From assembly GCA_002838945.1 (NCBI GenBank), contig PGXB01000002.1, positions 213,474 through 277,473 on the forward strand: a stretch of DNA of 64,000 bases, read 5' to 3'. The notes beneath the pieces were generated by a model that saw only the letters and a program-made list of their open reading frames with translations, was not told the DNA's origin and did not search any database. Shown here in pieces: positions 23,397 to 34,943 of the stretch. Each line of letters starts with the position of its first letter. The stretch's first letter is position 1. The position numbers were made by a program, and so were the translations under genes. The stretch is from a candidate division Zixibacteria bacterium HGW-Zixibacteria-1 (GTDB lineage: Bacteria; Zixibacteria; MSB-5A5; GN15; PGXB01).

Positions 23397-24501
23397 ATGA
23401 TAAACGACATAAGAGATAGCATAAGTGATTTGGAGACACGACTTTCCAAACTTGCGAGGTTTCTTTGACCTCGATAAACGTCGTGAAAAAATTAACAAAT
23501 TAGAAGAAAAAACGGCCGCGCCCGACTTTTGGAACGATAATCAGGCGGCGCAGGCGGTGCTCAAGGAAATTTCCGAGCACAAAAAATGGCTCGAAAAAAT
23601 CGATAAGCTTAACTCCGAGCTTTCTGATCTGAAAGAACTTGCTGCCATGATCGAAGATGAAGACATTTCCGATCAGGATGAAATTCGCAGCTCGCTTACT
23701 GTTCTTGAGACAGCCGTCGGGAGTCTTGAGTTCACCACTCAGCTATCCGGCCCTGATGATGCCCGCAATGCCATTCTCACGATTCATCCCGGCGCCGGAG
23801 GCACCGAATCGCAGGATTGGGCCGACATGTTGTTTCGTATGTACAATCGCTGGTGTGAAATTCGGGGATTCAAAGTGACTTTGCTCGACTACCAGCCGGG
23901 TGAAGAAGCCGGGTTGAAATCGGCCACGATGGAGGTCGAAGGTGAATATGCTTTCGGCTATCTCAAGGCCGAATCGGGCGTTCATCGGTTGGTTCGCATT
24001 TCGCCGTTCGACGCCAATAGCCGTCGGCACACCTCCTTTGTCTCCATATACGTTTTTCCTGAGGTGGACGATACCATTGAGATTGAGATTAATGATGATG
24101 ATCTTCGCGTCGACACCTATCGCGCATCCGGAGCCGGCGGACAGCATGTCAACAAGACCTCCTCGGCAGTGCGCCTTACTCATTTACCGACCGGTATTGT
24201 CGTCCAGTGCCAGAATGAACGCAGCCAGATAAAAAACCGGTCAACGGCAATGAAAATGTTGCGCTCCCGTCTGTATCAAATGGAGTTGGAAGAGCAGCGC
24301 AAAAAGAAACAGCAGATGGAACAGTCAAAAAAGAAAATAGAATGGGGATCCCAGATACGCAGTTATGTCTTTCACCCTTATAATATGGTCAAGGATCACC
24401 GGACCAGCGTCGAGACCTCCAATATCCAGGCGGTCATGGACGGTGCCATTGATCGTTTTATCGAGGCCTATCTGTCCGATCCCGATTTTAAAGATAACTA
24501 A
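23397..24501 (+). CDS. prfB: Peptide chain release factor 2 with programmed +1 frameshift
   Basis: Release factor 2 terminates translation at UGA and UAA. Frame zero starts at ATG 23397 behind GGTGAGG and runs 23 codons (MINDIRDSISDLETRLSKLA then RFL) to an in-frame TGA at 23466. The rest is in the +1 frame from GAC 23467 (DLDKRREKINKLEEK). The site CTT TGA C with GCGAGG three bases before CTT is the classical prfB autoregulatory frameshift. In the main part SPF (VRISPFDANSRR) reads the stop codon and GGQ (SGAGGQHVNKTSSAV) triggers peptide release. Total ~367 residues, normal. Followed by pta after 41 bases. Confidence 0.96.
23454..23469 (+). promoter_or_regulatory. prfB programmed frameshift site
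   Basis: GCG AGG TTT CTT TGA C in frame zero. GAGG acts as the internal Shine-Dalgarno-like stimulator with the usual 3-base gap before the slippery CTT; the TGA is read slowly when RF2 is scarce, so the ribosome slips +1 to TTT GAC. Confidence 0.92.
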
Positions 24502-24542
24502 TGTCGCAGGATAATTTTTTATATAGTTGAGGAGTGCATCCT

Positions 24543-25550
24543 ATGTCAGGCGGTTCACTGAATATTCTTGATTCCATAAAGGAAAAGGCACGGGCTAAAA
24601 AGAGAAAGGTGGTCCTTCCCGAAGGTACCGAACCGCGGGTTATCAAAGCTGCCAAAATACTTGTCGAGCAGAAAATCGCATCGGTGGTACTTCTCGGCAA
24701 TAAAGACGAAATCGGCCGACTGGCCGCCGAGGCAGAACTGAATCTGAGCCTGGTTCGCGTAATCGATCCCTCCGTATCGGAATTAATCCCCGATTTCGCC
24801 AAGACCTTATTCGAAAAAAGAAAACATAAGGGTATCACTGAGGCCCAGGCGACTGAGACCGTCAAAAACGTCCTCTTTTTCGGCGCCATGATGGTTGAAA
24901 AAGGCATGGTGGACGGCTGTGTGGCAGGCTCCGTCAATACCACCGGTGATGTCATGCGGGCGGCGATCCAGGTGATCGGCCTGGCGCCGGGTATCAACAC
25001 CGTTTCTGGTGCCTTTATGATGGTGCTGCCTAAATTCCGCGATGAGGAAAACAAGATATTTATGTATGCCGATTCCGCCGTGGTCCCCAATCCGGATGCG
25101 GCGCAACTGGCCTCGATCGCGGTTTCGACTGCCGAAACGATGTACAAACTGACGGGACAGGAACCGCGGGTGGCGATGCTTTCATTTTCCACCAGGGGAT
25201 CGGCCAAACATGAGGATGTTGACAAAGTTCTGGAGGCTCTGGCCCTGGTCCGCAAAGAGCATCCTGAACTCAAGGTCGACGGCGAAATGCAACTCGACGC
25301 CGCCATCATTCCCGAAATCGCCTCGCGCAAAGCGCCGGGATCGGATGTTGCCGGCAAAGCCAATGTGCTTATATTCCCCGATCTCGATGCCGGCAATATC
25401 GGCTACAAACTGACCGAGAGGCTGGCCGGGGCCACCGCGACCGGGCCGATTGTGCAGGGTCTGCGGCTGCCGATGAACGATTTGTCGCGCGGCTGCTCGG
25501 CCCAGGATATTGTTGATGTCTCAGCGATTGCTGTACTTATGAAAGGATAG
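24543..25550 (+). CDS. pta: Phosphate acetyltransferase
   Basis: A 335-residue phosphotransacetylase converting acetyl-CoA and phosphate to acetyl phosphate and CoA. Family marks: VVLPEGTEPRVIKAAK at the start, DGCVAGSVNTTGDVMRAA, FADSAV-type segment MYADSAVVPNPDAAQLA, MLSFSTRGSAKHEDVDKV, DGEMQLDAAIIPEIA and FPDLDAGNIGYKLTERLAGA near the end. Short form without the CobB/DRTGG N-terminal domains. Start ATG 24543 lies eight bases after GAGGAG; the GTG at 24534 is part of that site. No acetate kinase is in the window. With PFOR (46-49.6 kb) it would support acetate formation with ATP gain. Confidence 0.95.
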   Translation: MSGGSLNILDSIKEKARAKKRKVVLPEGTEPRVIKAAKILVEQKIASVVLLGNKDEIGRLAAEAELNLSLVRVIDPSVSELIPDFAKTLFEKRKHKGITEAQATETVKNVLFFGAMMVEKGMVDGCVAGSVNTTGDVMRAAIQVIGLAPGINTVSGAFMMVLPKFRDEENKIFMYADSAVVPNPDAAQLASIAVSTAETMYKLTGQEPRVAMLSFSTRGSAKHEDVDKVLEALALVRKEHPELKVDGEMQLDAAIIPEIASRKAPGSDVAGKANVLIFPDLDAGNIGYKLTERLAGATATGPIVQGLRLPMNDLSRGCSAQDIVDVSAIAVLMKG

Positions 25551-25676: not shown

Positions 25677-27083
25677 GTGAGTTCCCTCATTATAATCATC
25701 ATTGCTACTGTTGTCGTTGCCGCGGCAATAGTGCTAATTATTTTCAAGAACTATCGCAAGGTCGGCCCCAATGAGGTGCTGATTATTTCCGGAGGCAGAA
25801 AACGCACGATTACTCTGCCGGATGGGTCATCACGGCAGGTGGGATACCGGTTCCGTATCGGCGGCGGTACTTTTGTCAAGCCGTTTGTCGAGCAGGCACA
25901 GATTCTTCCCCTCGAAATCATCCCGATGGAAATAAAGGTTGATGATGCCATCTCGACCAACGGCATCCGTTCGACTGTAAAAGGGACCGCCGAAGTAAAA
26001 ATCGCCGGCGATGAAGCTTCGATCCATCTGGCTGCCGAACAGTTTCTTGGCAAACCTCTGCCTGACATCCGTGACGTCGCCCTGAGAACCCTGGAAGGTT
26101 CGACCCGCGCTTTGATCGGGACCATGAATCTCGAATCGATTAACAAAAACCGGAAAGACTTTGCCAAAGCGGTCTTTGACGATGTCGGCGCCTATTTCGC
26201 CAATATGGGCCTGAAATTGCTTTCCTTCAACCTGAAAGAGATCACCGACCCCTCGGGTTACCTGGAAGCGCTCGGACGTCCGAAAATCGTCCAGGCCAGA
26301 CGTGACGCCGAGGTGGCCGAGGCGGAAGCGGCTCGTGATGCCATCATTAAGTCGGCCGATGCCAAAAAAGAGGGAGATATCGCCAAGATCATAGCCGAGA
26401 CCAAAGTGGCCAACGCCAACCAGTCTTTTGAGCTTAATCGCGCCGAACTCCAGAAGGCTCTCAATTTCAAGAAAGCCGACGCTGATTTTGCCTATGAACT
26501 GCAGCGGCATAAATTGAATCAGGAATTAAAGGCCGAGGAAGCCAAGGTCAAGATCATCGAGAAAGATTCCGCCATCGCCTTGGAGAAAAAGGAAATCGCC
26601 CGGGTGGAGCAGGAACTCGAAGCCAAGGTCCGCAAGCCGGCCGAAGCCGAGCAGTTCCGTCTTGAAGCCGAGGCCAAAGGTATGGCCGAGGCCAAGCGTA
26701 TTCAGGGATTGATCGAAGCCGAACTGATCGAGAAGATCGGTCAGGCTGAAGCCGATTCCATGCGCCGCAAAGCGGAATCATACAATTCTTACTCTCAGCC
26801 GGCGGTGCTTCAGATGATCTTCGATAAATTGCCTGAACTGGCCCGCGAGATGGCTACGCCTCTTTCAAAAGTGGATAAAATTGTTATGGTCTCCAATGAC
26901 GGCAAAGTGGGATCATCAAAGATAACCGGCGAGGTGGCTTCGATGATGTCGCAATTGCCGACTGTGGTTAAGTCTCTCTCCGGATTCGACCTTGAAGATT
27001 GGCTGCAAAAGCTTTCGGAGAAGAAAAAGGAAGCGAAGACCGAGACCTCTCATAAATCGTCCTCGGCAGACGGCCAGAAATAA
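25677..27083 (+). CDS. Flotillin-like SPFH/band 7 membrane scaffold protein
   Basis: A 468-residue flotillin-type protein. An N-terminal membrane segment (LIIIIIATVVVAAAIVLIIF) is followed by the SPFH/PHB domain (PNEVLIISGG to ~residue 200, with LEGSTRALIGTMNLESI) and a long coiled coil rich in A-E-A repeats (~200-370). The C-terminal part, ending in polar EKKKEAKTETSHKSSS, is typical of bacterial flotillins that organise membrane microdomains. GTG start behind TAGGAGAG. Only 10 bases separate it from the aminotransferase fusion, so it heads what looks like an operon of flotillin, aminotransferase fusion, ndk and PEPCK-like gene. No NfeD partner is adjacent. Confidence 0.88.
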   Translation: MSSLIIIIIATVVVAAAIVLIIFKNYRKVGPNEVLIISGGRKRTITLPDGSSRQVGYRFRIGGGTFVKPFVEQAQILPLEIIPMEIKVDDAISTNGIRSTVKGTAEVKIAGDEASIHLAAEQFLGKPLPDIRDVALRTLEGSTRALIGTMNLESINKNRKDFAKAVFDDVGAYFANMGLKLLSFNLKEITDPSGYLEALGRPKIVQARRDAEVAEAEAARDAIIKSADAKKEGDIAKIIAETKVANANQSFELNRAELQKALNFKKADADFAYELQRHKLNQELKAEEAKVKIIEKDSAIALEKKEIARVEQELEAKVRKPAEAEQFRLEAEAKGMAEAKRIQGLIEAELIEKIGQAEADSMRRKAESYNSYSQPAVLQMIFDKLPELAREMATPLSKVDKIVMVSNDGKVGSSKITGEVASMMSQLPTVVKSLSGFDLEDWLQKLSEKKKEAKTETSHKSSSADGQK

Positions 27084-27093
27084 GGGGTAAGCG

Positions 27094-29436
27094 ATGATTT
27101 CCAATAGAATCGGACGTCTGGAGCTTTCCCCGACTCTGCGCATCAATGCCAAGGCCAAGGCAATGAAGGCCGAGGGCATTGATGTCATTGATTTCTCCGT
27201 CGGGGAGCCCGACTTTCCCACACCGGCCGATATAAAAGAAGCCGGCAAAAAGGCAATCGACGATAACTTTACCAAATATACCGCCAATGATGGTATCCCG
27301 GAATTGAAGTCGGCTATTCGCGCCCGGCTCAAAGAGGACCACGGCCTTGAATATGCCAACAATGAAATAATCGTTTCGTCCGGCGCCAAACAGGGTCTCT
27401 ATAATCTGTTCATGGCGATTCTTAACCGTGATGAGGAAGTGATTATCCCGGCGCCGTACTGGGTTTCCTACCCCCAGCAGGTGCTCATGGTTAAGGGAAA
27501 ACCGGTCATTGTGCAGACCAAAGAAGAGAACGGCTTCCGTCTCACTGCCGACGAATTAAAAGCCAATCTCAATTTTAATACCAAGGCAATCATTATTAAT
27601 AATCCAAGCAATCCGACCGGCGCCGCCTACACCCGGGAACAGCTGATGGAGATTTGTGAAATTGCGGCCGAGGAAGGATTGATTATTGTCGCCGATGAAA
27701 TTTATGAGAAGGTTATCTATGACGGGTACCGTTTCACATCGGTGGCCTCACTGAGCGATAAAATAAAAGCCAAGACAGTTCTTATCAATGGTGTTTCCAA
27801 ATCATATTCCATGACCGGCTGGCGTATCGGGTATGCTATCGGCCCGCGCGAATTGATCTCGGCGATGGGCATCATCCAGTCGCATACGACCTCGAACGCC
27901 AATTCCATCGCCCAGAAAGCGGCCGCGGCCGCCCTGTCCGGCAACCAGTCGGAGATCAACCGGATGGTGGCCGAGTTCCAAACCCGGCGGAATTACATGA
28001 TGAGCAAACTGAATCGGATACCGAACATATCCTGCTATCAGCCTCAGGGCGCTTTCTATCTCTTCCCCAACACCTCGGCCTACTACAACACCGAATACGG
28101 CGGCATGAAAATCAGAAACTCGTACGGTCTGTCATATTACTTATTGAAAGAAGCGGCTGTGGCGCTGGTGCCCGGAAGCGCCTTCGGTGCCGACGATAAT
28201 ATCAGGCTGTCATATGCCACCTCGATGGACAAAATCGAAAAGGGAACCGATCGCATCATCGAAGCCATGCTGAAACTGAAGGAATCGCCGAAATACAAAC
28301 GGGTCGCTTTGCAGAATGTCATGACCTATCCCAAAGGGAATGTCGAGATAGATACAGCCGTATCCGTCGAGGAGCGTGATGCTCTGGTGCAGGAAGCCGA
28401 AGCCAATCTTCCCTTCGACCGCTACTTCGAATGGAATGCCAATATTAACGGCATTATCATTCAATTGCGGACCAACGTGCCACACCTCTATGATTTCTGG
28501 GTGGAGAACTGGTACCCGGCGCAGCTTGAATCCGACCTGGAACCCCACGGCATTATTTATGCCGTCGACGGCGTCCCCGGACGGACATCATATGGCTACT
28601 ATTGCCCGGAAATGAGAACCGCGATTTTGTTCAACACCAGTTATTACGGTCAGATCCGAAGCATCGCTCTGGGCATGGTGGCCCAGGCCAGCGAGCGGCT
28701 TCTCGATGTGCATGGTATTCGGGCGGCCGGCGTCGATTTCGGCGGCAAGGGCCTGCTCCTTGTGGGCGCCAAAGGCATGAAACGCGGCTCATCACTTTTA
28801 CGATTGCTCGAGGATGAAAAAGCCCGCTTCCTGACCAATGACTGGCTGTTCGTACGTTATCGCGGCAATGAAGCCATTGCCGATGCTCCCGAACGCAAAT
28901 TTTATTTTAAAACCGAGAGCGCCAAGAACTTTCCGCGGTATGCCCGAATCTTCGATCGCAGCAAATGCGAAAATGTCGTGACGACCCGGTCCGACTGGAC
29001 CAACATGAAAGAACTTGTTGATGAATGCCCTCTCGATCTGGGCGAGCCATACTGCTACTGGGGCAGCCTCGATTCGAGAGCGCTGGTCGATCCGGCCTGG
29101 ATCGGCGGCCCGCAAAAGTACATCAAACGCTCGCATCTGAAAACGGTCGCGTTGCTATGCTACGAGCCCAATACCCCGGCAGTGGAAAAACTGTCAGTGG
29201 AAGCCGCCCTCGATTATGTCACTCAGGGAAAATACCGCTCTGCTTCCGGAGCCGGCATGACACCATATAAAACGCAGCCGTTCTTCAATCCTTATATTCT
29301 GGGCACTTCGGTTGAGCAGGAAGATTTGCAGCGCCGCAATTTCCACCAGTTGTTCCGCGTAACAACGGCATACAAAGTGAATATAGCATCAATTCCGCCC
29401 GAGACGATTAAATCCCGTCTCCGGGAATTGGTTTAA
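27094..29436 (+). CDS. Aspartate-type aminotransferase fused to a divergent PEPCK/HprK-like domain
   Basis: Residues 1-~395 are a complete fold type I, class I/II PLP aminotransferase: GEPD (37-40), NNPSNPTG (169-176), DEIY (201-204), the PLP lysine K236 in NGVSKSYSMTGWRIGY and the carboxylate-binding R371. Stand-alone enzymes end there. Residues ~400-780 are an extra domain that I read as related to PEPCK/HPr-kinase folds. It has LLLVGAKGMKRGSS (555-567) where a P-loop belongs, FLTNDWLFVRY (579-589) at the Walker B place, and KFYFKTES (602-609), matching in order the PEPCK-like gene 0.4 kb downstream (GLSATGKST, QDDICFL, FNYFVKTD). The P-loop is degenerate. The fused domain may sense nucleotide or act as a kinase; unproven. 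Coupled by 11 bases to ndk. Confidence 0.8.
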   Translation: MISNRIGRLELSPTLRINAKAKAMKAEGIDVIDFSVGEPDFPTPADIKEAGKKAIDDNFTKYTANDGIPELKSAIRARLKEDHGLEYANNEIIVSSGAKQGLYNLFMAILNRDEEVIIPAPYWVSYPQQVLMVKGKPVIVQTKEENGFRLTADELKANLNFNTKAIIINNPSNPTGAAYTREQLMEICEIAAEEGLIIVADEIYEKVIYDGYRFTSVASLSDKIKAKTVLINGVSKSYSMTGWRIGYAIGPRELISAMGIIQSHTTSNANSIAQKAAAAALSGNQSEINRMVAEFQTRRNYMMSKLNRIPNISCYQPQGAFYLFPNTSAYYNTEYGGMKIRNSYGLSYYLLKEAAVALVPGSAFGADDNIRLSYATSMDKIEKGTDRIIEAMLKLKESPKYKRVALQNVMTYPKGNVEIDTAVSVEERDALVQEAEANLPFDRYFEWNANINGIIIQLRTNVPHLYDFWVENWYPAQLESDLEPHGIIYAVDGVPGRTSYGYYCPEMRTAILFNTSYYGQIRSIALGMVAQASERLLDVHGIRAAGVDFGGKGLLLVGAKGMKRGSSLLRLLEDEKARFLTNDWLFVRYRGNEAIADAPERKFYFKTESAKNFPRYARIFDRSKCENVVTTRSDWTNMKELVDECPLDLGEPYCYWGSLDSRALVDPAWIGGPQKYIKRSHLKTVALLCYEPNTPAVEKLSVEAALDYVTQGKYRSASGAGMTPYKTQPFFNPYILGTSVEQEDLQRRNFHQLFRVTTAYKVNIASIPPETIKSRLRELV

Positions 29437-29447
29437 AGGAGGTCAGG

Positions 29448-29873
29448 TTGGCTAATACACTCGGTATAATCAAACCGGACGGTGTCCGGCGCAAGCTGGT
29501 CGGGAAAATCATCAGCAAAATTGAAGGTGCCGGCCTGATCATTCGGGGAATGAAAGTCCTCAAAATCGACCGCGAGCAGGCGGAAAGATTCTACGCCGTC
29601 CACGAGAGCAGACCCTTCTATAAATCACTTGTGGAATTTATGACTTCCGGCCCGGTTGTAGTTATGGTAATCGGCGGACATGGCGCCATCGAGCACTGGC
29701 GCGATTTGATGGGCGCCACCGATCCGGCCAAAGCAAAATACAATACTATCCGCCGTGAATATGGCACCTCAATCGAGAAGAATGTTGTTCATGGTTCTGA
29801 CGGTGAAGCAACCGCCAAGATCGAAGTGGCCTTCTTCTTCGACCAAGACGAAATTTTGCCAAAGGGTGTTTAA
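29448..29873 (+). CDS. ndk: Nucleoside diphosphate kinase
   Basis: A 141-residue NDK, which moves the terminal phosphate between nucleoside triphosphates through a phosphohistidine. TLGIIKPDGVRRKLVGKII opens the fold and the active-site histidine is in NVVHGSDGEATAKIEVAFFF (near residue 117). Start is TTG, fixed by AAAGGAGGT six bases ahead. It lies 11 bases after the aminotransferase fusion and one base before the PEPCK-like gene; together they could balance GTP and ATP pools around a PEP-forming or nucleotide-using step, which is an inference from gene order. Confidence 0.95.
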   Translation: MANTLGIIKPDGVRRKLVGKIISKIEGAGLIIRGMKVLKIDREQAERFYAVHESRPFYKSLVEFMTSGPVVVMVIGGHGAIEHWRDLMGATDPAKAKYNTIRREYGTSIEKNVVHGSDGEATAKIEVAFFFDQDEILPKGV

Positions 29874-29874
29874 G

Positions 29875-31725
29875 ATGTCAGATTCGATTTATGATACCGG
29901 CACATATGCCCGATTCGCGCGGGATCTGCAGCGCCGTATCAACGGCCCGAATATCAAGGACATGAAACTTGAAGATCTACGCGAACCGGCCATCCATAGC
30001 GGGATGCAGACCAAATTCGGTTCCTGGGGGTGGCGTTCCGTCATTTCCAGCCGCATCGGTGAAAAAACGGTCTATCTCGGTTCGGAAAAGGTCCGCGAAC
30101 ACAGCCTGTCTGATAATAAGAAGAAAATAATCGAAAAGGCGCCGGAGGAACTTGAGAAGGTGCTTCATCTCATGGAGACTCTCCCCTTTGTCAGATTGCG
30201 GCGTCAGATGGGCAGCAATTCCGAATTTAATCCCAAGTGTAATTTGTACATGTCGGTGGCCGATCTGAAAAACCATCGGCAGGCACTTATGTGGGGACAT
30301 ACCATGGGCCCGGTAACCAAAGCGCCCGGCCCGGAATTCACACTTATTCATATTCCCGAGGAACATCAGATCCGCCAGCAGGTGTTGATGCTGCCCGACC
30401 ATAATATCACCGTCGTTCTAGGTTCCGACTATATGGGCGAGGACAAAAAGGGGTTCCTGCGCAACGGCATGCATGCCGCCGGTGACCTGGGCATGCTGGG
30501 TCTTCATGCCGGGACCAAGGTCGTAATTATCCGCGATGTCAAGACCAATAAGCTGAAAAAATATGGCGTCTTGCTCTTCGGGCTGTCGGCAACCGGCAAG
30601 AGTACCTGGTCCTGTCACCAGCTTGGTCTCGACTGGTTCAAAGGCGAGAGGACCATGGTTTGCCAGGATGATATCTGCTTTTTAAAAAATGACGGATCGG
30701 CATACGGCTCCGAGTTCAACTACTTCGTCAAAACCGATGTCGATAAAAAACTTCAGGAATCGATGTACAATGCGCTCGTCCATAAGAGTGCCATGTACGA
30801 AAATGTCATGATCAACGCCAACGGGCAGCCTGATTTTCTGGACGAAAACCTTTGCGGCAACGGCCGAGCGGTGATTATGCGCAAGCAGCTCAAAATCAAA
30901 CGCGGTCACTGGCCGTTCGCCATGAAAGATATCTGGTATCCCTCTCTTAACCTGCCGCCTATTGACGATCTCGACGGCATCGTCTTTGCCTTTATAACCC
31001 GGCGCAATACCATCATGACCTTTTCGCAGAGATTGACCCCCATCCAGGCGGCCCTCGCTTATTTGTGGGGTGAATCCAGTCATAGCTATGCCTCCAATCC
31101 GGCCAAAGCTGGCGAATCGGTCCGCACCGTCGGCACCGACCCGTTTATCGTCGGTTCGAGGGCGCAAAAGGTCAACTTTTTCTATAAGATAATCATGGAC
31201 TTGGCAGCCAACTACCCGGATAAAGTGGCTTTTTACCAGTACAACACCGGCGGCATGGGCGAGATTATCGAAATGCTCCCCGACGGCGGCAAGAAAATGG
31301 TCCGCAAAACCGAACGCGTCCCGATTGATACCATGGCTGCTATTCAGCGCGGTGACTTGCGCGGCACCAATGACTATGTTAACAGCTTCCTTGGTACCGA
31401 AGTTATCGTCAAGGCCGAGGGCACCGATCTGAGTGCTTATGACCCGAAGAAATACTACTCCCAGGACCAGATCGATAATTACCTGCGTGATCTGGTCGAC
31501 GGACGGCGCAAGTTTACCGAAAAAGTGGCTGAGGAAGGTTTAATGCCGGAGATTATTCGCGCGGCAGAGGAATCATACGGAATCGCCACGCCGAAAGAAA
31601 CCAAAGTATATATGTCGACCACGAAAAAAGAACCGCCTCCACCCAAAAAAGAAACCGCCGCAAAACTGACCGATTGGAAACCCAATCCGCGATTGGCCAG
31701 GGACCGCGGCTGGCGCTACGGATGA
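29875..31725 (+). CDS. Divergent ATP-type phosphoenolpyruvate carboxykinase-like protein
   Basis: A 616-residue protein related to ATP-dependent PEPCK, which converts oxaloacetate and ATP to PEP, CO2 and ADP. Marks in order: NITVVLGSDYMGEDKKG (~178-193), P-loop GLSATGKST (236-244), QDDICFL (264-270) at the kinase-2 position, MYENVMINANGQPDF and ENLCGNGRAV for the region LENV..DF..ENTRA of classical enzymes, and a conserved RLTPIQAALAYLWGESSHSY for LTPEQAMYHFLSGYT. The usual DDEH reads QDDI, so activity should not be assumed. A ~50-residue proline- and lysine-rich tail (EPPPPKKET) is extra. Start MSDSIYDTG at 29875 is one base after ndk and follows AAGGGTG. Confidence 0.75.
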   Translation: MSDSIYDTGTYARFARDLQRRINGPNIKDMKLEDLREPAIHSGMQTKFGSWGWRSVISSRIGEKTVYLGSEKVREHSLSDNKKKIIEKAPEELEKVLHLMETLPFVRLRRQMGSNSEFNPKCNLYMSVADLKNHRQALMWGHTMGPVTKAPGPEFTLIHIPEEHQIRQQVLMLPDHNITVVLGSDYMGEDKKGFLRNGMHAAGDLGMLGLHAGTKVVIIRDVKTNKLKKYGVLLFGLSATGKSTWSCHQLGLDWFKGERTMVCQDDICFLKNDGSAYGSEFNYFVKTDVDKKLQESMYNALVHKSAMYENVMINANGQPDFLDENLCGNGRAVIMRKQLKIKRGHWPFAMKDIWYPSLNLPPIDDLDGIVFAFITRRNTIMTFSQRLTPIQAALAYLWGESSHSYASNPAKAGESVRTVGTDPFIVGSRAQKVNFFYKIIMDLAANYPDKVAFYQYNTGGMGEIIEMLPDGGKKMVRKTERVPIDTMAAIQRGDLRGTNDYVNSFLGTEVIVKAEGTDLSAYDPKKYYSQDQIDNYLRDLVDGRRKFTEKVAEEGLMPEIIRAAEESYGIATPKETKVYMSTTKKEPPPPKKETAAKLTDWKPNPRLARDRGWRYG

Positions 31726-31768: not shown

Positions 31769-31808
31769 GAATAGTTAATTATTTTGTAATTTATGGGGTT
31801 TTTTGAAT

Positions 31809-32096
31809 ATGCCTACTTATCAATATAGATGCACGGAATGTGAACACGAGTTTGAGAAATTTCAGCCGATCTCCGACGATCCTGTTTCGGTCTGCCCCGA
31901 GTGCAGCGGTTACACCGAGCGGATAATAACCGGCGGCGCGGGCTTCCTCCTCAAAGGCTCCGGCTTCTACTCGACTGATTATCGCAGCAATTCCTATAAA
32001 AAGGGCGAGCAGAAATATAAAACCGACGTTACGGCGCCGGCCAAAACTGAAAGTAAATCGGATTCTCCGGCCAAAAGCACTGAAAAAAAGGTCTGA
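31809..32096 (+). CDS. FmdB family zinc-ribbon protein
   Basis: A 95-residue protein starting MPTYQYRCTECEHEFEKFQ, with CxxC pairs CTEC (8-11) and CPEC (~30-33) forming a zinc ribbon, then a GAGFLLKGSGFYSTDYRS segment found throughout this family. The C-terminal third is a lysine/serine-rich, probably disordered tail. FmdB was named as a putative formamidase regulator, but the family's job is not settled. The next gene begins 5 bases on. Confidence 0.85.
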   Translation: MPTYQYRCTECEHEFEKFQPISDDPVSVCPECSGYTERIITGGAGFLLKGSGFYSTDYRSNSYKKGEQKYKTDVTAPAKTESKSDSPAKSTEKKV

Positions 32097-32101
32097 GATT
32101 T

Positions 32102-33457
32102 ATGCATAACTTTGACGGTCTCAGGAATAGGTTTGGCAAAAGACTTATTCTTGAGACCGATTCTTTTCCCGATTATTCCCGCGATGCTTCAGAAATTCGC
32201 GTCAAAGCTCCCGCCATAATTTTTCCGGATAATGAAACCGAAGTTGTTGAAATCATGAGTCTTTGCCGCGAAGGCGGGATTCCTGTCGTCTTTCGCGGGG
32301 CCGGAACCGGCTATACCGGCGGCGCCGTTCCGGTGCCCGATGGGCTGGTGCTTTCGCTGGAACATTTGAAGAAACTGGAGCTGGATCCAAAACAAAAACG
32401 GGCCTTCTGCGGCCCCGGCATTATTACCATCGATTTGATGAAGGCGGCGGAAAAACATAATCTTTTTTATCCGCCCGACCCGGCCAGCTATGATGAATCG
32501 ACCCTGGGCGGCAATGTCGCCGAATGCGCCGGCGGGCTGCATTGCAAAAAGTATGGCGTTACCAAGGATTATATCATCGGCCTCAGGGCGGTTACAATAG
32601 ATGGAAAAATTATCGAAACCGGCGTCTATTCTAATGGCGATATCTTTGATTTATCAGGAATCATTATTGGTTCCGAGGGGCTTTTGGCTGCCGTCACCGA
32701 GATTGCTGCCCGACTGATCGAACTTCCCACTTTCGGCCCAACCATTCTGGCCGCCTTCGGCGATCCCGAAGATGCTGCGCAAACCGTTGCCGAAATCACC
32801 AGATGCGGCATCGTGCCATCGGTAATGGAATACATGGATGGCGATTCGGTGGCCTGCTCGAATGATTATGAGAAATCGATTGAAATCGATAATGCCGCCG
32901 CGATTTTGCTGTTTGAAACATCGGGGGATAAATGTCTGTCGGAGGCGGAGCAAATTGAAGATATCTGCCGCCGGTTCAGAGTTATATTTTTGACCAGAGA
33001 AAACAATCGAGGAAAAGCGGAAAAGCTCTGGAAAATCAGGCGGAATTTGTCCAAAGCCGTCAAAGAAGCGGCCCGCCACAAAATATCGGAAGATGTCTGT
33101 GTGCCGCCCTCGAAGCTGCCGGAACTTGTTCACTTTGTGGCCCAACTCAATGAAAAATCACCGATACGCATAAATTCTTATGGTCATGCCGGCGACGGCA
33201 ACCTTCATGTGAATTTCCTGGCCCAAAGCGATGACAATCATGAGTTGGCCCTGATCGATGAAGGAATAAAACAGCTTTTCGATAAAACACTCCGACTTGG
33301 CGGAACCCTGACCGGAGAACATGGCATCGGTTTGACGAAAAGGGATTTCCTGCATCTCGAATTCGACGAGCCGACTCTCGACCACATGAAAAAGATTAGA
33401 AATGCCTTCGATCCCTACCATCTGCTGAATCCGGGGAAATTATTTTCAAATTCGTAA
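32102..33457 (+). CDS. FAD-linked oxidase, GlcD/D-lactate dehydrogenase type
   Basis: A 451-residue flavoprotein of the VAO/PCMH family. The FAD-binding half shows VVFRGAGTGYTGGAVPVPDGLVLS and FYPPDPASYDESTLGGNVAECAGG; the C-terminal cap has INSYGHAGDGNLHVNFL and GTLTGEHGIGLTKRDFL with FDPYHLLNPGKLF at the end. Enzymes of this shape oxidise D-lactate, glycolate or other 2-hydroxyacids and pass electrons on. No GlcF-like Fe-S subunit is beside it, unlike the fused protein at 41.9-44.6 kb. Substrate unknown. Confidence 0.85.
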   Translation: MHNFDGLRNRFGKRLILETDSFPDYSRDASEIRVKAPAIIFPDNETEVVEIMSLCREGGIPVVFRGAGTGYTGGAVPVPDGLVLSLEHLKKLELDPKQKRAFCGPGIITIDLMKAAEKHNLFYPPDPASYDESTLGGNVAECAGGLHCKKYGVTKDYIIGLRAVTIDGKIIETGVYSNGDIFDLSGIIIGSEGLLAAVTEIAARLIELPTFGPTILAAFGDPEDAAQTVAEITRCGIVPSVMEYMDGDSVACSNDYEKSIEIDNAAAILLFETSGDKCLSEAEQIEDICRRFRVIFLTRENNRGKAEKLWKIRRNLSKAVKEAARHKISEDVCVPPSKLPELVHFVAQLNEKSPIRINSYGHAGDGNLHVNFLAQSDDNHELALIDEGIKQLFDKTLRLGGTLTGEHGIGLTKRDFLHLEFDEPTLDHMKKIRNAFDPYHLLNPGKLFSNS

Positions 33458-33553
33458 TTAATACCTCGCTGCTCGCAATTATATAATCAGAACCCATTTC
33501 CAAAAAAATATTGAATAAAAGTGAAAAAATTCACGAAATCGCTTGGAGAACTA

Positions 33554-33582
33554 TTGACAAGTCGCGGCAAATAATTTAATAT
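33554..33582 (+). promoter_or_regulatory. Promoter of citrate synthase
   Basis: TTGACA (33554-33559), 17-bp spacer, TAATAT (33577-33582), then a ~80-base leader to ATG 33669. The rest of the 211-base gap after the FAD oxidase shows nothing else. Confidence 0.65.
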
Positions 33583-33668
33583 GTCATTTCAATAATATGG
33601 GGATGTGTAACAAGTGAATCTGTCGATCATCAAAATCAATCTTTATAAATCAAAATAGGAGTATATTG

Positions 33669-34943
33669 ATGGCCACATTACAAAACAAACTTGCCAAGAT
33701 GATTCCTCAGTTGCGAGATGAACTGAAAGAACTTGGCAAATTACACGGAGACAAGAAGATCTCCGACGTGACCGTGGGCCAGGCATACGGTGGTATGCGC
33801 GGCGTGAAGGCCATGATCTGTGACACTTCGGTCGTTTATCCGGACAAAGGTCTGATTATTCGCGGAATCCCGATTATGGATTTGCGGGATAAACTGCCCG
33901 AGGAAATTTTCTATCTGCTGTGCACCGGAGAACTTCCCGACAAAACCGCTCTCAAGGCTCTGCAGAAAGAATACGCCGAAAGATCAAAAGTTCCGACCTA
34001 TGTTTGGAAAGTCCTTGAAGCGATGCCCAAGGATTCGCATCCGATGGCTATGCTAAATACCGCTATCCTGGTCATGCAGCGCGAATCCGAATTCAAAAAA
34101 GCATACGACAAGGGTATGGCCAAAACCGATTACTGGAAACCGATGTTGGAAGATTCCCTGAATCTCCTGGCCAAGCTGCCCGGAATCGCCGCCGGCGTTT
34201 ACCGTATGCGTTTCAACAAGGGCAACAGAATCGCCTACAAAAAAGACCTCGACTGGGGCGCCAATTATGCCAACATGCTCGGCATCAAGGACAAATCGGG
34301 CGTCTTCACCAAGCTGATTCAACTGTACCTGACCCTGCATTGCGACCATGAAGGCGGCAATGTCAGTGCCTTCAGTTGTCATACTGTCGGTTCGGCCCTG
34401 TCCGATGCCTATTATGCCGTTTCAGCAGGTCTGAACGGATTGGCCGGCCCTCTGCACGGTTTGGCCAATCAGGAATGTCTCGGCTGGGTTCTGGATACCA
34501 TGAAAAAATTCAATGGTGTTCCGTCCGACGAGCAGATTGACAAATACGCATGGGAAACCCTGAATGGCGGCAAAGTTATTCCGGGATACGGCCATGCCGT
34601 TCTCCGCGTGACTGACCCGAGATTCAGCGCCTTCCTGGCCTTCGGTAAAGAAAACCTGCCGGAAAGCCCGGTCTTCCAGACGGTTGCCAAAGTTTATGAC
34701 ATCGTTCCGGAAGTTCTCAAGAAGCACGGCAAGGCCAAGAATCCGTGGCCCAATGTCGATGCCGGTTCCGGCGCTCTGCTGTATCATTTCGGCTTGACCG
34801 AATTCCCTTACTACACTGTCCTCTTCTCGGTTTCGCGTGCCATGGGTATGCTGTCACAGTTGATTATCAACCGTGCCGTCGGCACCGCCATCACTCGTCC
34901 GAAATCAGTCAGCACCGAGTGGATCAAGCAGAATATTCAGTAA
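33669..34943 (+). CDS. gltA: Citrate synthase, long type resembling mitochondrial enzymes
   Basis: A 424-residue citrate synthase condensing oxaloacetate and acetyl-CoA. Catalytic pieces: LYLTLHCDHEGGNVSAFSCHTVGSAL (first His region), GLAGPLHGLANQECLGW (second His), VIPGYGHAVLRVTDPR (third His and oxaloacetate Arg), and NVDAGSGALLYHFGL with the catalytic Asp. The long N-terminus (KKISDVTVGQAYGGMRGVKAMICDTS) and these motifs are like eukaryotic type I dimers rather than E. coli GltA. ATG 33669 is preceded by TAGGAG. Monocistronic, with its own promoter and a strong terminator. Confidence 0.94.
   Translation: MATLQNKLAKMIPQLRDELKELGKLHGDKKISDVTVGQAYGGMRGVKAMICDTSVVYPDKGLIIRGIPIMDLRDKLPEEIFYLLCTGELPDKTALKALQKEYAERSKVPTYVWKVLEAMPKDSHPMAMLNTAILVMQRESEFKKAYDKGMAKTDYWKPMLEDSLNLLAKLPGIAAGVYRMRFNKGNRIAYKKDLDWGANYANMLGIKDKSGVFTKLIQLYLTLHCDHEGGNVSAFSCHTVGSALSDAYYAVSAGLNGLAGPLHGLANQECLGWVLDTMKKFNGVPSDEQIDKYAWETLNGGKVIPGYGHAVLRVTDPRFSAFLAFGKENLPESPVFQTVAKVYDIVPEVLKKHGKAKNPWPNVDAGSGALLYHFGLTEFPYYTVLFSVSRAMGMLSQLIINRAVGTAITRPKSVSTEWIKQNIQ

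Follow-up and report, generated by a model that had tools for sequence, protein, structure and literature searches.

A predicted aspartate-oxaloacetate-PEP module built around an aminotransferase fused to a degenerate PEPCK-fold domain

What does an aspartate-type aminotransferase do with a second half that resembles PEP carboxykinase (PEPCK) and carries a broken P-loop? The question is raised by one gene in the window, a 64,000-nucleotide stretch of a Zixibacteria genome. The original prediction was that this gene joins a complete PLP enzyme to a degenerate relative of PEPCK or HPr kinase (HprK), and that its product could channel or regulate oxaloacetate, or serve as a nucleotide sensor or protein kinase. 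Our preferred answer, to which we give a probability of about 0.55, is a predicted aspartate-oxaloacetate-PEP module consisting of the aminotransferase, a C-terminal pseudo-PEPCK domain that docks or regulates, and a co-encoded PEPCK-like enzyme acting as the carboxykinase. The genes concerned are the following.

23425-25550 (+): upstream anchors by synteny, a release factor 2-like gene (23425-24501) and a Pta/Ptb-like gene (24534-25550), named from reading the sequence
25677-27083 (+): SPFH/flotillin-like gene (PF01145, E = 8e-22; PF15975 Flot, E = 2e-10)
27094-28275 (+): aminotransferase domain of the fusion, aspartate type, aa 1-394 (PF00155, E = 5.8e-78; PDB matches)
27799-27801 (+): K236, the PLP Schiff-base lysine (VSK236SYSMTGWRIGY), invariant in 16 aligned fusions
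28276-29436 (+): C-terminal PEPCK-fold domain (CTD) of the fusion, aa 395-780, predicted to be catalytically degenerate, with the stop codon at 29434-29436 (AlphaFold, Foldseek, hhalign)
29448-29873 (+): nucleoside diphosphate kinase (NDK), TTG start with AGGAGG upstream (PF00334, E = 1e-53)
29875-31725 (+): PEPCKL, a divergent PEPCK-like enzyme (PF01293, E = 2.5e-24; NCBIfam PRK09344.1-3)
31803-34943 (+): downstream anchors by synteny, a small zinc-ribbon-like gene, a GlcD-like oxidase and a citrate synthase-like gene, named from reading the sequence

Positions 27094-29436 of the forward strand were read as one uninterrupted open reading frame of 780 aa. In its first half the PF00155 match runs over residues 30-388 and over profile positions 2-361 of 361, so that the aminotransferase domain is complete. 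The closest PDB matches were aspartate aminotransferases (E down to 2e-104, e.g. 1j32 and 6f35), and the closest NCBIfam models are of the same type. Residues S12, T14, Y62, K99, W123, N173, D201, Y204, K236, R244 and R371 were invariant in the 16 aligned fusions, which come from distant families; K99 is the counterpart of the lysine with which the Thermus aspartate aminotransferase reads the acidic side chain of its substrate. The N-terminal half is thus a complete class-I aspartate-type aminotransferase with all catalytic residues, as the original prediction held. It differs from the known enzymes of this class in its 386-aa PEPCK-like extension and in its scores against the NCBIfam aspartate transaminase equivalogs, which lie below the cut-offs (442.6 bits vs. 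617 for PRK06107.1 and 426.8 vs. 550 for NF041091); the models therefore leave the substrate unsettled.

These missed cut-offs would suit a role of the fusion outside PEP metabolism, in amino-acid biosynthesis (e.g. as a prephenate or LL-DAP aminotransferase) with the CTD as a mere structural tail, and the close PDB homologues do include bifunctional aspartate/glutamate-prephenate aminotransferases. We consider this the least probable of the explanations discussed here. Purifying selection on the CTD was nearly as strong as on the catalytic half, which is unexpected for a tail: dN/dS in close pairs was about 0.03-0.08 in both, values that are approximate with dS near saturation. The CTD is moreover tied to PEPCKL, and its gene occupies a chromosomal slot common to an aminotransferase + PEPCK operon (see below). 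Since dN/dS is low in both halves the CTD is not simple junk; within it, in the same near-saturated pairs, dN/dS was at its minimum in the N-terminal part and larger around the P-loop.

The fusion is no artefact. An assembly error or frameshift joining two genes was rejected, as genomes assembled independently contain the same full-length frame, with a CTD identity of at least 38%. It was found in 40 of 132 Zixibacteria genomes, some copies being cut by contig ends, and an unfused relative in two. A scan of GTDB genomes gave 157 relatives, and the best 80 of these 157 (the named loci) were all fused. Overall the fusion was seen in some 100 genomes and spans about a dozen phyla of uncultured bacteria; the record titles among the best 80 name Zixiibacteriota, Aminicenantes, Gemmatimonadota, TA06, Ignavibacteria, Calditrichota, Latescibacterota, KSB1, Fischerbacteria, Acidobacteriota, Bacteroidetes and Tariuqbacter, together with a few further single MAGs that may be mis-binned. 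A search of open-access PMC papers found no description of an aminotransferase-PEPCK-like fusion, in line with the original prediction, whose author knew of no such enzyme.

The CTD on its own matched no Pfam or NCBIfam family above cut-off, PF01293 and TIGR00224 included, and a search of PDB and Pfam with the window's CTD sequence gave nothing useful; detection needed profiles and a structural model. An AlphaFold model of the CTD built from 18 aligned homologues reached pLDDT 80 and pTM 0.82. The best 50 Foldseek matches of this model in the PDB were all PEPCK (E down to 2.8e-16, probability 1.00), with TM-scores by query of 0.65-0.71 against ATP-PEPCK structures. The model of the full-length fusion had a pTM of 0.53, and its domain arrangement was not usable. 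For hhalign, a profile of about 90 CTDs was compared with targets that included the canonical PEPCKs of Zixibacteria. It aligned with canonical PEPCK over 317 columns (CTD 29-377; 95% probability, E = 3e-8) and with the operon neighbour PEPCKL at 92.5% probability (E = 5e-7). Three unrelated control profiles (flotillin, aminotransferase and NDK) gave probabilities of at most 1.4%, so the match to PEPCK is not due to chance. Weak matches to Pro-MCH, Trefoil, PNPOx and TOPRIM proteins were regarded as chance.

Similarity to HprK was of a different extent. The hhalign match had 84% probability but covered only about 47 columns around the P-loop. A CTD HMM profile reached HPr kinase 1ko7 (E = 0.0022), and Hpr_kinase_C (PF07475) matched 8 of 18 CTD members weakly (best member E = 7e-4) and the window's CTD not at all; the fusion members and unfused relatives with listed scores obtained 12.8-14.4 bits, short of the gathering score of 33.3. 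HprK as the closest family was accordingly rejected as a global match and kept as a local similarity at the P-loop and DD motif. The model and the profiles thus agree on a PEPCK-fold domain for which PEPCK is the better match, and for residues 400-780 the original prediction of a PEPCK or HprK relative holds globally for PEPCK and locally for HprK.

The following segments of the CTD have counterparts in PEPCK.

28639-28662 (+): SYYGQIRS, counterpart of PEPCK GGTxYxGExKK (hhalign to canonical PEPCK; row table)
28765-28791 (+): degenerate P-loop GAKGMKRGS, aa 558-566, aligned with GxxGxGK[ST] of relatives
28831-28845 (+): LTNDW, kinase-2 motif (NDWLF from aa 582), first Asp lost and second Asp kept (row alignment)
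28891-28914 (+): ERKFYFKT segment (RKFYFKT from aa 601), counterpart of PEPCK EGGCYAK, E-R-K invariant in 18 diverse CTDs
28957-28980 (+): RSKCENVV segment, counterpart of PEPCK LENV, C-E-N-V invariant in 18 diverse CTDs and aligned with PEPCK ENV

Like ATP-dependent PEPCK (PckA; PF01293, TIGR00224), the CTD shows in order YxG..K/R, the P-loop, kinase-2, ERKFY/EGGCY, ENV and a LTADAF-like strand. The predicted collinearity with the neighbouring gene was also seen, GAKGMKRGS, NDWLF and RKFYFKT corresponding to GLSATGKST, QDDICF and FVKT of PEPCKL. Unlike PckA, the CTD lacks the N-terminal substrate-binding Arg segment GRSPKDRF, which the canonical enzyme has at residue 58; the alignment begins at residue 81 of the genome's canonical PEPCK. 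In SYYGQIRS a Ser replaces the second Lys of YxGExKK, a metal ligand in PEPCK; for the metal-binding His the HprK and PEPCK alignments indicate different residues, neither of them a conserved His across CTDs. The P-loop, GLSGTGK[T/S]T in ATP-PEPCK, is indeed broken, with Lys changed to Arg and Ser/Thr to Gly, and the first Asp of kinase-2 is replaced. The CTD is a member of the PEPCK fold superfamily, yet judged by the defining features it is not a PEPCK.

The state of the P-loop varies by lineage. Counted in rows, in which some genomes occur twice, GK[S/T] was found in 14, K[S/T] not preceded by Gly in 44 (TKKT for the most part), and Arg types in 33; the kinase-2 pair was DD in 13 rows and ND in 66, with the second Asp kept almost everywhere. 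The window's Arg type belongs to a 23-row clade with full support in a quick tree. Because the other Arg types are placed elsewhere on this tree, loss of the P-loop apparently occurred repeatedly. The loop is degenerate in the window's clade, whereas some relatives that share the fusion have a canonical loop together with DD; it has thus decayed, and the alignments indicate that the CTD descends from a nucleotide-binding PEPCK-like protein, with decay after or around the fusion event. Two genomes from the window's class encode an unfused CTD relative of 580-600 aa with intact GKST and DD (L040:5423-7222 and L041:6645-8387, both on the minus strand). These two genes also have an HprK-like His and lie downstream of ABC-transporter-like genes (named from reading the sequence).

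The relatives that keep GK[S/T] and DD mean that the CTD need not be non-catalytic in every lineage. It might then still be catalytic, transferring phosphate by way of an unorthodox P-loop (KKT or KRG types) to a small molecule or, as a protein kinase, to flotillin, PEPCKL or the fusion's own aminotransferase, and the retention of the second Asp and the weak HprK matches described above fit such an activity. We regard it as unlikely, given that the window's clade lacks the Walker A Lys, the Ser/Thr and the first Asp, that the similarity to HprK is limited to 47 columns, and that the genome encodes a separate, true and full HprK elsewhere. The original proposal of a nucleotide sensor or protein kinase is weakened for this clade by the same loss of the Walker A Lys/Thr.

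Several columns of the presumed pocket remained conserved while the loop changed: D189, R194, E206-R207-K208, C231-E-N-V and R285 (A2 numbering) were invariant in 18 diverse CTDs. Within the window's clade the altered loop shows conservation of its own, G166, G169, R172 and G173 being invariant. Both observations fit an allosteric sensor, in which oxaloacetate, PEP or ADP/ATP bound in a remodelled PEPCK cleft of the CTD would adjust the aminotransferase with no contact to PEPCKL. The persistence of the fusion in three genomes of family f16 without PEPCKL (one of them, G115, in a single contig) points the same way, and these genomes suggest that the CTD may also act independently of PEPCKL. The near-strict co-occurrence of fusion and PEPCKL and their gene order argue instead for a function shared with PEPCKL, and we consider a stand-alone sensor rather improbable, though a more serious contender than the kinase. 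As a side observation, in the segment after the P-loop most CTDs that do not belong to the window's clade (L032-L039) have four conserved Cys (ECxNxxCx5-6CxLDxGxPxC) and the window's CTD has two, which suggests a metal site half lost in this clade.

The cassette is one line of evidence for the preferred reading of an aminotransferase-PEPCKL module. The gaps between flotillin, fusion, NDK and PEPCKL are about 10, 11 and 1 nt. Of the 72 named loci uninterrupted by a contig end, 71 had flotillin immediately upstream of the fusion, and PEPCKL adjoined the fusion in 63 of 77 (57 downstream, 6 divergent). Among the 132 Zixibacteria genomes PEPCKL was detected (E<=1e-60) in 37/40 with the fusion and 0/92 others, and flotillin at the same threshold in 37/40 and 4/92. 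In the window's clade, unlike in most other phyla, the NDK gene separates the fusion from PEPCKL; its product might provide PEPCKL with NTP.

PEPCKL scored 86.3 bits against PF01293 (cut-off 26.5) and fell below all NCBIfam PEPCK cut-offs (286.5 bits vs. 369 for PRK09344.1-3; 23.4 vs. 590 for TIGR00224). Aligned to canonical PEPCK, it has retained Tyr, Lys-Lys, His, GLSATGKST, DD and Arg at the corresponding positions, consistent with a working carboxykinase. Of 8 long chromosome records containing the cassette, 5 showed no ATP-PEPCK homologue besides PEPCKL. A canonical PEPCK is also encoded in the window's genome, so there the cassette is not the sole route. PEPCKL constitutes a distinct and strongly conserved family (55-87% identity across phyla) that may deserve a model of its own.

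The best evidence for function comes from the chromosomal slot. Many relatives that lack the fusion have a distinct, unfused aminotransferase (AT-B), 36-38% identical to that of the fusion, whose nearest models are again aspartate aminotransferases. In 29 of 34 AT-B genomes its gene stands directly before, and codirectional with, that of a canonical PEPCK, with a nearly uniform 168-185 nt between the matched stretches, and this PEPCK scores above its NCBIfam cut-off (804 bits vs. 636). Nine AT-B + PEPCK loci were read for flanking genes (among L230-L238, e.g. L233:4246-7127). The release factor and Pta genes that precede the cassette in the window flanked the pair in 8/9 (L230-L236, L238), and the zinc-ribbon, GlcD and citrate synthase genes were on the other side in most of the nine. 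The operon thus shares with the cassette its slot and its pair of enzyme types, and differs in having two separate proteins, a canonical PEPCK and no flotillin or NDK.

Among the 60 nearest relatives AT-B was present in 0/15 fusion carriers and 34/45 others, 11 fusion-lacking genomes having neither (Fisher p = 1.5e-7, uncorrected for kinship); as genomes are not independent, this exclusivity could come partly from shared ancestry. Both states were found within each of families f1, f2 and f4. The common slot, the exclusivity and this mixture within families indicate that one module displaced the other in place or that each was lost differentially. Because the slot is the same, the cassette probably does the job of the AT-B + PEPCK operon, from aspartate via oxaloacetate to PEP, as an organised complex. 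The original suggestion that oxaloacetate is channelled or regulated is strengthened by this correspondence, its functional part staying a prediction.

Aspartate aminotransferase and PEPCK are a known metabolic pair, e.g. in PEPCK-type C4 plants. In the proposed mechanism the fusion aminotransferase would interconvert aspartate and oxaloacetate, and PEPCKL would interconvert oxaloacetate and PEP + CO2. The CTD, a putative pseudo-PEPCK paralogue that has lost its P-loop in the window's clade, would hold or regulate the pair, by docking PEPCKL or by sensing oxaloacetate, PEP or nucleotide. The flotillin-like protein from the same cassette is a possible membrane anchor for the assembly. A fuller version, a metabolon in which the aminotransferase has its own pseudo-PEPCK adaptor for an active PEPCK, is held at the membrane by flotillin across about a dozen phyla and can replace the ordinary operon at its locus, is offered tentatively, as a possibility we would not bet on. 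The fusion provides a natural test of whether a decayed enzyme copy serves as adaptor or regulator at the aspartate/oxaloacetate/PEP branch point, for which the relatives with an unfused operon in the same slot are a ready-made comparison, and the tie to flotillin is a concrete candidate for what bacterial flotillin might organise.

A further arrangement of the slot was seen in one genome (G068, L239:3069-5664), where the release-factor and zinc-ribbon genes enclose a lone unfused aminotransferase of 403 aa, 47-48% identical to that of the fusion; this may be an intermediate state.
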